This document shows positions 12,687-27,444 of a DNA stretch of 36,198 bases, piece by piece. The notes below the pieces were generated by a model. That model saw only the letters and a list, made by a program, of their open reading frames with translations, did not search any database and had not been told where the DNA came from. Position numbers and translations under genes: made by a program. The DNA is from Novosphingobium sp. (GTDB lineage: Bacteria; Pseudomonadota; Alphaproteobacteria; Sphingomonadales; Sphingomonadaceae). Position 1 is the first letter of the stretch. Each line of letters begins with the position of its first letter. Where the stretch lies: positions 1 to 36,198 of the forward strand of contig JACDQK010000153.1 of the NCBI GenBank assembly GCA_015657645.1, given 5' to 3'.

Positions 12687-14276
12687 TTGCGTCAGCTCCA
12701 GGGGATGGATGCGTCGTTCGTGGCGCTTGAGACGCGCAACTCGCCGATGCACATCGGCTCGATCCTGATCTACAATCCTGAAACGGCCCCGGGTGGCTTT
12801 GTCCGCTTTAAGGATATCCTAGCCTTCATGGAAAGCCGGATGCAGCTGTCGCGCACCATGCGGCAGCGGCTGGTGCGGGTGCCGTTCGATCTCGACTATC
12901 CGTACTGGATCGAGGATCCGGATTTCGATCTGGAATACCACGTCCGCCACGTCGCCCTGCCCAAGCCGGGTGACTGGCGCCAGCTGTGCATCCAGGCTGC
13001 GCGGGTCTTCGCCCGGCCGCTCGACCTCACACGCCCGCCGTGGGAATTCACGGTGATCGAAGGGCTCGACAACATCCCCGGCGTGCCCAAGGGCAGCTAC
13101 GCCATGGTCACCAAGGTGCACCATGCGGCGATCGACGGGATGAGCGGGATCGACCTGATGGAGGCGCTCCATACGCTGCTGCCCGACACGCCCCCGCCCT
13201 CCGAGCCGGACAACTGGCAGCCGGAAGCGGTCCCCAGCCCGGCCTCGCTGATCGCCAAGTCCTGGCTCAATGCCGTTGCCAATCCGGTCCGCCAGCTTGA
13301 AGTTGCCGCCAAGGCCATGCCGGGCCTCGCCCGCGCTGTGAAGGGTCTCGCGACCAAGGATTTTGCCCTCCACGGCGAGATGATCGCCCCGCGCACCCGC
13401 TTCAACCAGGTGATCTCGACCAGCCGCGTGGTCGAAGGCCGCTCGGTCCCACTGTCCGATATCAAGGCGATCCGCACCGCGGTGGAAGGGGCCAAGGTCA
13501 ACGACGTGTTCCTGACCATCATCGGCGGGGCCATGCGCAAGTACCTTGAGGCCAAGGACGACCTGCCGGACAAGACCCTGACCGCGATGGCGCCGATTTC
13601 GGTGCGCGGGAAGGACGAAAAGGGCGACATGGGCAACCAGGTCGCGGCGATGATCGCGCCGCTGGGCACGCACCTGGCCGATCCGATTGACCGGCTCGAA
13701 TACGTCTTCTCGCAGACCGCCAATTCCAAGGCCATGACTGACGCGCTCGGCGCCCGCAACATGACCGAGATGAGCAAGGTCAGCCCGGCACTGTTCATGG
13801 CGCTGGCCGCCCAGGCCTATACCCGCCTTGGCCTCGCCAACCGGGTCGCCCTGCCCTTCACCACGGTGGTGACCAATGTTCCGGGTCCGCCAGTGCCGAT
13901 CTATTCGGCCGGGGCGCGGCTGGAAAGCATGATGGGCCTGCTGTGCCTGACCGATGGCTTGGGCCTGGGTCACGTCGTGCAGAGTTATGTCAAGGAGGCG
14001 ACGATCGCCTTCACCGCCTGCCGCAACCTGCTGCCCGATCCGGAGTTCTACGCCCAGTGCATCGAAGACAGCTTCCACGAGCTGCGCGAAGCCGCGGCGA
14101 AGATGCCGGAACCGCGCGTTCCCTCGGCAAAACCCGTCAAGCCAGCAAAGGCCGCAGCCAAATCGGCCAAGCCCACCGCGAAGCCAAAAGCCGCGCCCAA
14201 AGTGAAAACCACAACGACAAAGAAGCCGGCCACCAAGAAGCCGGCCACCAAAAGCAGGAAGGTCGCCAAAAAATGA
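12687..14276 (+). CDS. Wax ester synthase/diacylglycerol acyltransferase (WS/DGAT) family O-acyltransferase
   Basis: WS/DGAT enzymes transfer an acyl group from acyl-CoA to a long-chain alcohol or diacylglycerol at the membrane face, making storage lipids. The 529-residue protein has the catalytic HHxxxDG motif at His145-Gly151 (KVHHAAIDGMSG), an N-terminal LQGMDASFVALE start, and the PLF-like and VVTNVPGPPVPIYSAGARL region near residues 390-415. The last ~55 residues form a Lys/Ala/Pro-rich tail not found in typical members. The start is a TTG at 12687, 7-8 nt after a strong AGGAGGGG; no ATG fits the family N-terminus. Its stop overlaps the hydrolase start (ATGA). Storage-lipid synthesis is a family inference; the substrate is not shown. 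Confidence 0.88.
   Translation: MRQLQGMDASFVALETRNSPMHIGSILIYNPETAPGGFVRFKDILAFMESRMQLSRTMRQRLVRVPFDLDYPYWIEDPDFDLEYHVRHVALPKPGDWRQLCIQAARVFARPLDLTRPPWEFTVIEGLDNIPGVPKGSYAMVTKVHHAAIDGMSGIDLMEALHTLLPDTPPPSEPDNWQPEAVPSPASLIAKSWLNAVANPVRQLEVAAKAMPGLARAVKGLATKDFALHGEMIAPRTRFNQVISTSRVVEGRSVPLSDIKAIRTAVEGAKVNDVFLTIIGGAMRKYLEAKDDLPDKTLTAMAPISVRGKDEKGDMGNQVAAMIAPLGTHLADPIDRLEYVFSQTANSKAMTDALGARNMTEMSKVSPALFMALAAQAYTRLGLANRVALPFTTVVTNVPGPPVPIYSAGARLESMMGLLCLTDGLGLGHVVQSYVKEATIAFTACRNLLPDPEFYAQCIEDSFHELREAAAKMPEPRVPSAKPVKPAKAAAKSAKPTAKPKAAPKVKTTTTKKPATKKPATKSRKVAKK
14220..14249 (+). repeat. Tandem 15-bp repeat (2 copies) in the WS/DGAT tail
   Basis: Two perfect copies of AAGAAGCCGGCCACC lie side by side and encode KKPAT twice. 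They are part of the low-complexity basic tail, so the tail length may vary between strains by slippage. Confidence 0.85.
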
Positions 14277-15069
14277 CAGCAGCCAGTGCCGCATTCCCGC
14301 AGCCGAGCCATGCTCGGCCGCCCTCGCGCCTGTTCGCCTTTGCCGAGCCGCGCGCCTTGCTGGAACTGGCGGCGTTCTATGCGGTGCGGCCCTATCTTTC
14401 CAACCTGCCGGAAGGCGATGGCCACCCGGTGCTGGTCCTGCCGGGCTTCCTGGCCTCCGACAGTTCGACTGCACCTTTGCGCAAGCTGCTCAAGCAGCTT
14501 GGCTATGATGCGCGCGGCTGGGGCATGGGCCGCAACGTGCGGATCGACGCGCCGCGCGTGCACGAGATGGAATCGATGCTGCTGCGGATCTACCGCGAGA
14601 CCGGCCGCAAGGTCTCGATCGTCGGCTGGAGCCTGGGCGGCGTCTTCGCCCGCGAGCTGGCCAAGGCCCACCCCGAAGCGGTCCGCTGGTGATCTCGCTC
14701 GGCAGTCCGATCTCTGACGACCGCCGCCATTCCAACGCCGCGCGCTTGTTCGAATATCTCAATGGCCGCGATCCGGAGCCGATCCGCCAGGGCCGCTTCG
14801 TCGATCTCCACCGCGCGCCGCCAGTGCCGACCACTTCGATCCTGACCAAGACCGATGGCGTGGTCCACTGGCGCGGTTCGGTGCAGAAGCGCTGCGCCCA
14901 TCCGCACACCGAAAACATCGAGGTGCTGGCCAGCCACTGCGGTCTGGGCTTCAATCCCAGCGCGGTCATCGCCATCGTCGACCGCCTGTTGCAGCCCGAG
15001 GGTGAGTGGAAGCCGTTTGAGCCGCGCCTGTCGCAGCGCTGGATGTTCCCCAAGACCAGCCTGCAATAG
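14273..15069 (+). pseudogene. Alpha/beta hydrolase (lipase-like), single-base frameshift
   Basis: The N-terminal part reads MTAASAAFPQPSHARPP, then HPVLVLPGFLASDSST and the nucleophile elbow GWSLGGVFARELA. It hits a TGA at 14690-14692 right after PEAVRW. The rest of the fold follows in another frame from about 14689: VISLGSPISDD, then TKTDGVVHW (candidate catalytic Asp) and LASHCGLGFNP (candidate catalytic His), to a TAG at 15067. Adding one C (CGCTGG to CGCCTGG at about 14686) joins the halves as VRLVISLG and gives about 265 residues. The ATGA overlap with the WS/DGAT gene indicates an operon. It is likely a lipase or esterase working beside the acyltransferase. Sequence error is more likely than real decay because both halves are otherwise intact. 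Confidence 0.8.
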
Positions 15070-15074
15070 ACTCA

Positions 15075-16016
15075 ATGTCTACCCGTCACCTGGTCGATCC
15101 CGAGCTGCTGCCGCTGCTCGATCTGCTGCCACCGACCGATCTGGCGGCAATGGACCTGGGTGAGCTGCGCGTGACCAGCAACGCGCGCTATGCTTTCCTG
15201 GGCGCCCCGCCGCTTGCCCCGGTTGTCCACACCATCGCCGGACCGGGCGGTCCGCTGGAGATCTATCTCTACGATCCGGCGCCCGGCGCACCCGGACGGG
15301 CCGCGCTGCTCCATATCCATGGCGGCGGGATGATCATGGGTTCGGCCAGCGTGATGCAGGCCGGGCCTGCGGCCATGGCGCAGGCGCTGGGGATCCCGGT
15401 TGCCTCGGTCGAGTACCGGCTCGCCCCGGAGCACCCCTTCCCCGCCCCGCAGGAAGATTGCCTCGCCGCACTGAAGTGGCTGGCCGGACTTGCCGAAGTC
15501 GATCCCGAACGGATTGGCATCACCGGTGAAAGCGCCGGCGGCGGCCTGGCCGCAGCGGTCGCGCTGATGGCCCGCGATCTGGGTGGTCCGCAGCTGGCCG
15601 CGCAGTTCCTGACCTATCCGATGCTGGACCACCGCACCGGCAGCGCCAATTGCCCCTATGACAACGCGACGACCGGGGAGTTTGTCTGGACCCGCTCCTC
15701 GAACCGCTTTGGCTGGGGCGCCTTGCAGGGGACTTACCAGCCGACCGACGAACGGCGCGGCTGGTACTCGCCCACCCTGGCGGAGGACTTGTCCGGCCTG
15801 CCGCCGACCTGGATCGGCATGGGCAGCCTTGACCTGTTTTACGACGAAGACCTCGACTTTGCCCGCCGCCTCGTCGCGGCCGGGGTGCCGGTTGAGCTCC
15901 ATTCCTATCCCGGTGCGATCCACGCTTTCAACGCGGTCGCGGAAAGCCGCCTGGCCAAGGCCTATGGCCGCGATCTGATGGGCGCCATGGCGCATTGGCT
16001 GCAGGTCGCCAGATAA
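15075..16016 (+). CDS. Alpha/beta hydrolase, family IV (hormone-sensitive lipase-like) esterase
   Basis: The 313-residue cytoplasmic esterase shows the family IV pattern. The oxyanion motif HGGG begins at His82 (HIHGGGMIM). The nucleophile is Ser153 in GESAGGGLAA. The acid is the Asp in GSLDLFYDED and the base is the His in GAIHAFNAV. The YRLAPEHPFPA segment that follows HGGG in this family is present. The ATG at 15075 lies five bases after the preceding stop, so it belongs to the WS/DGAT operon as the third gene. Substrates are probably short-chain or medium-chain esters; that is a family inference. A hairpin terminator follows. Confidence 0.92.
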   Translation: MSTRHLVDPELLPLLDLLPPTDLAAMDLGELRVTSNARYAFLGAPPLAPVVHTIAGPGGPLEIYLYDPAPGAPGRAALLHIHGGGMIMGSASVMQAGPAAMAQALGIPVASVEYRLAPEHPFPAPQEDCLAALKWLAGLAEVDPERIGITGESAGGGLAAAVALMARDLGGPQLAAQFLTYPMLDHRTGSANCPYDNATTGEFVWTRSSNRFGWGALQGTYQPTDERRGWYSPTLAEDLSGLPPTWIGMGSLDLFYDEDLDFARRLVAAGVPVELHSYPGAIHAFNAVAESRLAKAYGRDLMGAMAHWLQVAR

Positions 16017-16022
16017 GCAAAA

Positions 16023-16050
16023 GGGCCGCGCGAGCTTCCCCGCACGGCCC
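16023..16050. terminator. Bidirectional hairpin between convergent genes
   Basis: GGGCCGCGCG pairs with CGCACGGCCC (one mismatch) around an 8-nt loop. On the minus strand it is followed by TTTTGC and on the plus strand by CTTCCTT. It sits between the esterase stop and the stop of the convergent exported protein, so it probably ends both transcripts. Confidence 0.65.
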
Positions 16051-16070
16051 CTTCCTTCATTTCCGTCCGA

Positions 16071-16586
16071 TCAGATCGCCTGGCCGTCCACGTTGACGTT
16101 GCGGATTCGGCCGTCGCGGTCGATCACGCAGCTGAAGCTGCCATTGCCGGTAGTCGTACCGGCAACCCGCCAGCCGCCATCGGCGCGGTTGACACTCTCG
16201 ACCTCGCCGACGCGGGTCTTGCCGCGGTTCACTTCATCGATGCAGCGGTTGATTGCGCTGTCGATGCCGGTGCCTTCGCGCCATTCGGGGCGATCGTCGT
16301 CGCTGCCATAACGCGGCGCTTCCTCGCGATCGCGGGGGAGCGGCTGGCGATAATCGTCCTGCTGCTGGCGCTGCTTGTTGGCCTTGCTGGCGGCGCTGGC
16401 GATCGCGGCGATCCCGCCGATGATCAGAATGCCGGCGAGGATATCGCCGCCATCGACCCGGTCGTGGTTGCGGTAATGCCCGCCCCAGCCGCCACCCCAG
16501 CCGCGTGCCATGGCTGGCGTTGCGGCCATCGAAAACGATGCTGCCAGCGCCAGGGCGGCTGCGCTCCGCTTGAACTTACCCGTCAT
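16071..16586 (-). CDS. Exported Gly-zipper protein of unknown function (paralogue A)
   Basis: I do not recognise a function. The 171-residue product has a signal peptide (MTGKFKRSAAALALAASFSM, cleavage near TPAMA), a Gly/Trp-rich stretch, then a hydrophobic glycine-zipper segment GDILAGILIIGGIAAIASAA. A polar linker follows, with a C-terminal domain containing one Cys pair (INRCIDEVNRG and FSCVIDRDGRIRNVNVDG) that may form a disulfide. The ATG at 16586 is preceded by GGAAGGGG and was preferred to a GTG six codons upstream. It is the downstream neighbour and paralogue of the gene at 16691-17305, sharing the zipper and the C-terminal pattern. Periplasmic or envelope-attached location is inferred. 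Confidence 0.75.
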   Translation of the reverse strand: MTGKFKRSAAALALAASFSMAATPAMARGWGGGWGGHYRNHDRVDGGDILAGILIIGGIAAIASAASKANKQRQQQDDYRQPLPRDREEAPRYGSDDDRPEWREGTGIDSAINRCIDEVNRGKTRVGEVESVNRADGGWRVAGTTTGNGSFSCVIDRDGRIRNVNVDGQAI

Positions 16587-16636
16587 CTGCTTGACCCCTT
16601 CCACCGCGCGACTCGCGCCAATGCTAACAAGGACTT

Positions 16637-16690: not shown

Positions 16691-17305
16691 TTAGAGGCCG
16701 CGGATCCCGTTGTAGTCGAGGTCGACAATCCGGCCCCGCTCGATCCGGCACTTGAACGAGCCGGAGTCATAGCCGCGCAGGTTGTCGTTCCAGCCGCGGT
16801 AGTCACCGCCCCAGCCCCGGCCATAGTTGCCATCGCCGCGGCGCCAGTCGCGCCCGTTGCTGTTGACCGCGATCCGCCCGCGCACTTCATAGCCATAGCG
16901 GGTTTCACGAATGTCGCGGACGTCGGTCACGTCGGCGCGGCCATAGCTGTAGCGCGCGGCGTTGCGCTCGGCGGCAAAGACGCACTGTTCAACAGCGCGG
17001 CGCGGGTTGCCGCGGCGGACATTGTCATCGCGATAGCCGTAGCCCTGGTTATAGCCATAGTCATTGCCGTAACCGGCCCGGTCATAGCGATAATCGCGAT
17101 CGTAGCGGTCATTGTTCTTGCTGGCTGCCGAAGCGACGGCAGCGATGCCGCCGATGATCAGGGCGCCGGCAATTACATCGCCCGCGCTGACACCGTCGCG
17201 ATCGCGGCGATCGGCAAAAGCCGGAGTGGCCGAAGCGAGTGCCATCGCGCCAGCCGCAACGGTGGCAATGGTGCCCTTGGCCAGAGCTTTGGACATGGTC
17301 TTCAT
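16691..17305 (-). CDS. Exported Gly-zipper protein of unknown function (paralogue B)
   Basis: The 204-residue product has a signal peptide (MKTMSKALAKGTIATVAAGA, cleavage near TPAFA). The zipper GDVIAGALIIGGIAAVASAA is nearly identical to that of its neighbour. A low-complexity Tyr/Arg/Asp/Gly-rich middle follows (repeats such as YDRDYRYDRAGYGNDYGYNQ), then a C-terminal domain with RRAVEQCVFAAERNA and SFKCRIERGRIVDLDYNG. The two Cys match the Cys pattern of paralogue A. The ATG at 17305 lies after AAGGAA. The function is unknown; an envelope role is suggested by the export signal and zipper, as in other small Gly-zipper surface proteins. Confidence 0.75.
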   Translation of the reverse strand: MKTMSKALAKGTIATVAAGAMALASATPAFADRRDRDGVSAGDVIAGALIIGGIAAVASAASKNNDRYDRDYRYDRAGYGNDYGYNQGYGYRDDNVRRGNPRRAVEQCVFAAERNAARYSYGRADVTDVRDIRETRYGYEVRGRIAVNSNGRDWRRGDGNYGRGWGGDYRGWNDNLRGYDSGSFKCRIERGRIVDLDYNGIRGL

Positions 17306-25946: not shown

Positions 25947-26465
25947 TTACTTCGCAGCCTTGTTGGCTTCGCGGCGAGCAGTCTTCTTCTCGTGCTCGCT
26001 CGGCTGTTCAGCCGGGAGTTCAACCGAACCGCCGGCCTTCTCAACCGCAGCGACCGCGCCCTTGCTGGCGCCGGTGACTGCAAACTTGACCTTGGCGGTG
26101 AACTCACCCTTGCCGAGCAGGCGGACGCCATCCTTGCCGCCACGGGCCAGGCCGGCGGCCTTGAGCGCGGCGTGATCGATCACGGCCTTGATGTCGAGCT
26201 TGCCCGCGTCGATGAACTTCTGGATCAGGCCCAGGTTCACTTCGGCATAGTCCTTGGCGAAGATGTTGTTGAAGCCGCGCTTCGGGATCCGCATGTGCAG
26301 CGGCATCTGGCCGCCTTCGAAGCCGTTCACCGAGACGCCCGAACGAGCCTTGGCACCCTTCTGGCCGCGGCCAGCAGTCTTGCCCTTGCCCGAACCGATA
26401 CCACGGCCGACGCGCATGCGACCCTTGCGGGCGCCCTTGTTGTCAGAGATTTCGTTGAGTTTCAT
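25947..26465 (-). CDS. rplO: 50S ribosomal protein L15 (uL15)
   Basis: L15 is a late-assembling 23S rRNA-binding protein. The 172-residue product starts [20 protein letters not shown] and has the Gly/Lys-rich extension [20 protein letters not shown] and the diagnostic [20 protein letters not shown]. The C-terminus carries an extra charged tail (about residues 150-172, [16 protein letters not shown]), making it longer than E. coli L15 (144). Terminator-like hairpins lie on both sides of the gene. Confidence 0.98.
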
Positions 26466-26505
26466 GTCGTTGCACTCGCTTTCGCTTTAGTCGCGCTGAA
26501 AGAAA

Positions 26506-26527
26506 CATCCCGGCCGAAGCCGGGATG
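26506..26527 (-). terminator. Terminator-like UUCG hairpin between rpmD and rplO
   Basis: On the transcribed strand CATCCCGGC-TTCG-GCCGGGATG is a perfect 9-bp stem with a C(UUCG)G loop, followed by TTTCTTTC. It may be a partial terminator or attenuator inside the operon, because rplO has no evident promoter of its own. Confidence 0.6.
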
Positions 26528-26536
26528 CTGGATTGG

Positions 26537-26713
26537 TCAATCGACCACAGCCACCATATGCGGCAGCTTGGCGATCGCGCCGCGCACTTCGGGAGTATCT
26601 TCCAACTCCACCACGCGGTGCATCTTGCCCAGGCCCAGGCCGACCAGAATCTTCTTCTGGCTTTCCGGGCGACGGATCGGCGAACCGATCTGCTTGATCT
26701 TGATCTTCGCCAT
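26537..26713 (-). CDS. rpmD: 50S ribosomal protein L30 (uL30)
   Basis: L30 is a small 23S rRNA-binding protein. The 58-residue product reads [20 protein letters not shown], then [20 protein letters not shown] and a C-terminus ending [10 protein letters not shown]. This is the complete bacterial short form (E. coli 59). The ATG at 26713 lies 6 nt after the restored rpsE stop. Because of the rpsE indel a long rpsE frame runs across this gene, so automatic callers may miss it. Confidence 0.95.
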
Positions 26714-26719
26714 GTCAGC

Positions 26720-27444
26720 TTACTCCGTGATCGCGCAGCTTCGGCTTCCGCCTCGGCTGCGCTCGCACCGCCGCGACCCAGCAGGTCGGCAACCTTCTTG
26801 CCGCGACGCTGGGCGACCGACTTCGGCGAAGTCTGGCTAACCAGAGCGTCGAAGGTGGCGCGGATCATGTTGTAGGGGTTCGAGGTGCCGACCGACTTGG
26901 TCACCACGTCGGCCACGCCCAGGCTTTCGAAGACGGCGCGCATCGGACCACCGGCGATGATCCCGGTCCCGGCCGGAGCCGAACGGACATTCACCTTGCC
27001 GGCACCGAAACGGCCCTTGCCGTCGTGATGCAGGGTGCGGCCTTCCTTGAGCGGAACGCGAACCATCTTCTTCTTGGCCGAGGCAGTCGCCTTGGTGATG
27101 GCTTCCGGCACTTCGCGCGCCTTGCCATGACCGAAGCCAACGCGGCCCTTGCCATCGCCAACCACGACCAGCGCGGCGAAACCGAAGCGCTTGCCGCCCT
27201 TGACGGTCTTAGAGACGCGGTTGATGTGGACCAGCTTTTCGATCAGCTCTTCGCCACCGTCATCGTCGCCGCCACGGCCACGACGATCGTCACGGCCACG
27301 GCCACGACCGCCACGGTCATTGCCGCCGCGGTCATTGCCGCCGCGACCACGGCCACGGCCGCGGGCTTCGCGCTGCTCGCCACCTTCGGTGGCACCGGTC
27401 GCCTCGACGGCGACTTCGTTTTCCATATTGGTTTCGTCAGCCAT
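26720..27444 (-). CDS. rpsE: 30S ribosomal protein S5 (uS5), RGG-rich N-terminus; frameshift at the last codons
   Basis: S5 helps the small subunit keep decoding accurate and sits at the mRNA entry channel. The core is complete: [60 protein letters not shown] and [20 protein letters not shown]. The first ~65 residues are an extension with acidic residues and then Arg/Gly repeats ([20 protein letters not shown]), absent from E. coli S5. At the 3' end the frame slips near 26732-26735 after AEAEAEAA; one extra G (GCGCG to GCGGCG) gives AAAITE and a TAA at 26720-26722, for 241 residues. As written, the frame runs on to 26443 across rpmD, which is very unlikely to be real. Confidence 0.93.
27314..27343 (-). 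repeat. Tandem 15-bp repeat (2 copies) in the rpsE N-terminal extension
   Basis: Two perfect copies of CGGTCATTGCCGCCG (plus-strand reading) encode RGGND twice. They lie within a wider Arg/Gly-coding low-complexity tract (about 27250-27365). Confidence 0.85.

Follow-up and report, generated by a model that had tools for sequence, protein, structure and literature searches.

The locus described here raises the question of why an acyltransferase of the WS/DGAT type should end in a long Lys/Ala/Pro-rich tail, and why it should be followed by genes for alpha/beta hydrolases. The genes lie on a stretch of 36,198 nt from Novosphingobium sp. (assembly GCA_015657645.1, contig JACDQK010000153.1), referred to in its entirety as the window, which comes from a draft genome of 3.0 Mb in 334 contigs, its closest named relatives being assemblies of Novosphingobium and Sphingomonadaceae. 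A preliminary description, made from the sequence, had proposed a three-gene operon for both synthesis and breakdown of esters under one promoter, had compared the tail in composition with those of histone H1 and PhaP/PhaF, and had suggested that it might tether lipid granules to the nucleoid or membrane. The features concerned are the following.

12687..14276, + strand: WS/DGAT acyltransferase gene, 529 aa, TTG start (PF03007, PF06974, TIGR02946)
14097..14273, + strand: Lys/Ala/Pro-rich tail of the acyltransferase, residues 471-529, past the last family-model match (residue 470)
14273..14692, + strand: N-terminal half of hydrolase 1, carrying the serine motif GWSLGG; its start overlaps the acyltransferase stop in ATGA
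14689..15069, + strand: hydrolase 1, C-terminal half with the conserved Asp and His, in a different frame; 98% identical to the intact protein of relative L008
15075..16016, + strand: hydrolase 2, an alpha/beta hydrolase of HSL type (198 bits to PF07859; HGGG at 82, GESAG at 151)
16020..16060, + strand: possible transcript end, a GC-rich hairpin downstream of hydrolase 2 that lacks a clear T run (-18.9 kcal/mol, z -3.0)

The identification of the first gene product as a WS/DGAT is secure. It scores 426 bits against TIGR02946 (cut-off 310), with the model match ending at residue 470, both Pfam domains are above cut-off (PF03007, 213 bits; PF06974, 118 bits), and the active-site motif HHxxxDG is intact as HHAAIDG at residue 145, its HH, D and G being invariant across 25 aligned relatives. 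The protein has both family domains at full length and closely resembles the solved WS/DGAT chains 7nxg and 6chj (E values of 4e-54 and 1e-49), yet these chains, at 463 and 455 aa, are too short to include a polycationic tail of about 60 residues, although the crystallized constructs may have been trimmed. The enzyme, the single WS/DGAT detected in the source genome, probably makes storage fat. Within the genus the acyltransferase is patchily distributed, being carried by four of 24 other genomes (G001-G024). The TTG start codon of the window is shared by 57 of 78 relatives and is possibly a conserved means of keeping translation low.

The tail itself, put at about 55 residues in the preliminary description, is indeed present and comprises about 59. 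The acyltransferase core has a GC content of 65% and the tail one of 60%; the tail DNA yields Lys/Ala/Pro-type sequence in the coding frame alone, the other two frames being different. Conservation in relatives, the check that had been proposed beforehand, was assessed in 80 sequences (79 Sphingomonadales relatives and the window protein), the tail being taken as everything after residue 470, and it bore the earlier claim out, since net charge past this residue is at least +8 in 71 of the 80. The 75 tails of at least 25 residues have a median length of 60 (26-88) and a median net charge of +17, and are composed of K (26%), A (28%), P (13%), T (10%), S (6%) and R (6%), with hydrophobic and aromatic residues practically absent. 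Sequence change has been far quicker in the tail than in the core: the window protein and L011 are 93% identical in the core and 43% identical in the tail. A basic tail of Lys/Ala/Pro type was nevertheless scored in 50 of 63 family members but in not one of 455 ORFs drawn from 36 gene families that recur nearby, and is thus not a product of chance. The tail is missing, or nearly so, in L042, L062 and L068, which indicates that the enzyme can do without it.

Certain words are more frequent in the tails than in within-tail shuffles, namely KPAA (z about 14), PAAK (about 11), AKPA (about 7), KKPA (about 6) and, more modestly, PAKKA (about 4), all of these z-scores being inflated by kinship among the family members. 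KPAA occurs in 38 of the 75 tails and PAKKA in ten, and a set of 39 distant WS/DGAT tails likewise shows enrichment of KPAA, PAKK, KKPA and PAKKA. The window's own tail lacks the exact word KPAA and has KPAT and KPAK instead, and the histone motifs SPKK and TPKK are not enriched in the family tails. The suggested likeness to histone H1 and PhaF-type tails therefore holds for composition and for repeat words of KPAA type. The acyltransferase is an ordinary WS/DGAT with a recurrent and apparently undescribed C-terminal variant. A structure model of the protein (mean pLDDT 48) was too poor for placing the tail or judging its disorder.

Similar tails are also found on distant WS/DGATs. WS/DGATs were carried by 21 of 289 alphaproteobacterial genomes and by 57 of 398 Pseudomonadota genomes in our samples, and about 40 of 125 non-redundant Pseudomonadota WS/DGATs have a strongly basic tail (39 by an automatic rule, and L106 assigned by hand). 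Others stop where the domain does or carry acidic tails, the latter being seen on L119, L135, L136, L142, L143, L213, L214 and L216. On a FastTree phylogeny of 137 sequences the tail state changed at least 20 times, compared with 32-46 times in 40 shuffles, a count which is only rough because the tree is a quick one with long branches. The tail is inherited within clades, yet has been repeatedly gained or lost.

The gene that follows the acyltransferase, hydrolase 1, has a conserved Ser (in GWSLGG), Asp and His in alignment, consistent with a serine hydrolase. The intact L008 protein matches generic alpha/beta-hydrolase models alone, and a fold search likewise returned generic alpha/beta hydrolases (RutD, ABHD6, BioH and monoglyceride lipase) with TM scores of about 0.5, so that no specific substrate is indicated by sequence or fold searches. 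Assignment as BioH was considered and rejected, the N-terminal half scoring 26.5 bits against a TIGR01738 cut-off of 207. Of 77 relatives, 59 have a 4 nt overlap between the acyltransferase and hydrolase 1 genes and nine others an overlap of 1 nt; the 4 nt overlaps support co-translation. In the distant set, hydrolase 1 is the commonest neighbour of WS/DGAT (found within 2.5 kb, upstream or downstream and on either strand, at 38 of 110 loci and in 34 of 58 genomes). The proposal of an operon for both synthesis and breakdown is thus supported by the overlap and by the recurrence of the pair across Pseudomonadota, and hydrolase 1, identified so far only by its fold, is a good candidate for the enzyme, whether lipase or thioesterase, that turns over neutral lipids in bacteria. 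An association between tail and hydrolase 1 (Fisher P=0.009, uncorrected) disappeared with phylogenetically independent pairs, and the two therefore look like independent traits.

In the window, hydrolase 1 is split. Comparison with four close relatives places a one-base deletion between 14682 and 14683, which leads to an early stop; the gene is uninterrupted in 76 of the 77 relatives that have it, the remaining copy being cut by a contig end. Both halves are 98–99% identical to the intact L008 protein, so that the gene does not look decayed. Near 26735, rpsE (ribosomal protein S5; 26443-27444, minus strand) has likewise lost a single base and with it the stop, and reads on into rpmD out of frame, the normal stop being present in three relatives. 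We consider both deletions to be probably sequence or assembly errors, because the relatives are intact, hydrolase 1 looks undecayed and the second deletion affects an essential gene in the same window; a recent real mutation is the less likely alternative. Programmed frameshifting was rejected as an explanation for hydrolase 1, as all other copies spanning the site are intact and the rpsE deletion suggests sequence error.

Hydrolase 2 has an intact frame, and its closest solved chains by sequence are lipases and esterases. It falls below the cut-offs of the named NCBIfam subfamilies (LipP1, 200 bits against 350; GESAG HSLs, 123 against 430) and, by these scores, is an unnamed branch of the hormone-sensitive lipase family. 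It was found in only nine of 80 related loci. In L025 (7515-8456) and L038 (2232-3173) it comes immediately after the acyltransferase, overlapping it by 4 nt, and hydrolase 1 is missing there; the two hydrolases may thus be interchangeable. The coupling of the acyltransferase to two different hydrolases, as first described, is therefore confined to a small lineage. The three-gene layout is mostly right, except that the middle gene is here split by the deletion; for the single promoter, a scan gave no credible candidate. Promoter and terminator scans yielded nothing firm, and the hairpin at 16020..16060 was not picked up by the latter. Genes located upstream in Erythrobacteraceae (permease, FAD oxidoreductase and ParA-like) were considered as operon members and left out as lineage-variable.

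Lysine-rich tails of comparable make-up are known from proteins of other storage bodies. In Pseudomonas, the KPAA domain of AlgP is required for the spacing of polyphosphate (polyP) granules, and a similar domain of PhaF is thought to bind PHA granules to the chromosome (PMC9239181). The acyltransferase family shares with these proteins a Lys/Ala/Pro C-terminus enriched in KPAA-type words; however, the tail is here attached to an acyltransferase rather than to a phasin or an AlgP helical domain, it is about 60 residues long as against 154–195 in PhaF and AlgP, and there is no further sequence similarity. Pfam gives WS/DGAT domains alone, with no phasin or AlgP-type N-terminal domain, and the protein is therefore not a member of the PhaF/AlgP type but merely resembles it in its tail. 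A neutral-lipid context is shared with MLDS of Rhodococcus jostii, which, like HBHA, has a lysine-rich C-terminus; that of MLDS, of PAKKA type, is a DNA-binding element that connects lipid droplets to DNA, and Lys-to-Glu substitution abolishes the binding (PMC5504291). The word PAKKA is found in the minority of WS/DGAT tails noted above, but MLDS is a droplet coat protein and not an enzyme, and Pfam detected no domain of the MLDS family in the acyltransferase. WS/DGAT genes beside lipid genes have also been described from coastal sediments, with Sphingomonadaceae among the hosts and an alpha/beta hydrolase adjoining WS/DGAT in Woeseia (PMC10351704), although in the passages considered the hydrolase is not treated as a phylum-wide partner and the tail is not mentioned. 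A search of the open-licence literature, which excludes most subscription journals, gave no description of WS/DGATs with a polycationic tail.

We hypothesize that the locus is a neutral-lipid operon in which the tail anchors the acyltransferase to a polyanion, most likely nucleoid DNA and otherwise an anionic membrane, a reading to which, by analogy with the proteins above, we would give a probability of roughly 0.45. The WS/DGAT would transfer the acyl group of acyl-CoA to a fatty alcohol or to diacylglycerol, presumably giving wax ester or triacylglycerol, and hydrolase 1, joined in this lineage by hydrolase 2, would hydrolyse the product or its precursors at ester or thioester bonds, translational coupling of hydrolase 1 allowing neutral-lipid synthesis and turnover to be co-expressed. 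The tail would act as a selected polycation of KPAA-type words, probably disordered, which may hold the enzyme, together with any lipid droplet forming beneath it, at a polyanionic surface, most likely nucleoid DNA, much as the lysine-rich tails of PhaF, AlgP and MLDS have been proposed to do for other storage bodies. A possible but rather less probable explanation is that the tail is an electrostatic anchor to the anionic inner membrane, the site of the diacylglycerol substrate, or to the phospholipid coat of the droplet. The substrates and products of the enzyme reside in membranes, the tails carry a high net positive charge, and polycationic tails can bind anionic lipids as well: the lysine-rich C-terminus of mycobacterial HBHA binds phosphoinositides and is required for lipid inclusions (PMC6176652). 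Against this, the aromatic and bulky hydrophobic residues that are frequent beside polybasic membrane anchors are practically missing, and the tail words resemble those of DNA-binding tails, and it is for these reasons that we favour DNA over the membrane.

The rapid divergence of the tail, its range of lengths among the longer examples, the many changes of state on the tree and the few relatives without it are what would be expected of a low-complexity solubility or spacer tail, drifting and tolerated, with no specific partner. We regard this as unlikely, in that a basic composition has been retained in 71 of 80 family members despite the divergence, and that words are enriched beyond composition, in distant tails as well, while no neighbouring ORF has such a tail. 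It is more improbable still that the tail connects neutral-lipid synthesis to another storage body by binding polyP or PHA granules. AlgP, with its KPAA domain, does associate with polyP granules (PMC9239181), some alphaproteobacterial WS/DGAT genes sit in PHA regions (PMC10351704), and the source genome encodes a PHA synthase and a phasin; these PHA genes, however, are located on a separate contig (C48), and the operon contains no polyP or phasin gene.

Anchoring to a polyanion, with nucleoid DNA as the preferred partner, may have a wider application, about which we are distinctly more tentative: many Pseudomonadota WS/DGATs might carry a polycationic DNA-binding tail that has arisen several times, so that the enzyme itself would set nascent droplets on the nucleoid and have them shared at division, without a phasin-like tether. 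To our knowledge, the placement of neutral-lipid droplets in bacteria is understood for very few species (MLDS in Rhodococcus). If the proposal is true, an H1-like tail on the synthase would be a simple droplet-positioning device in culturable Erythrobacter, Novosphingobium and other Pseudomonadota.

A few further features of the window may be recorded. No Rfam match was obtained in it. Opposite the acyltransferase lies an antisense open frame of 551 aa (12819-14474, minus strand). Such frames turn up repeatedly in the relatives too (families 6 and 9), and the one in the window is most likely a by-product of GC-rich coding. Adjoining the operon are two genes on the minus strand (16071-16604 and 16691-17305) for Gly/Arg-rich, secreted-looking proteins without a Pfam match, and this pair recurs downstream in Novosphingobium-like relatives (family 8).
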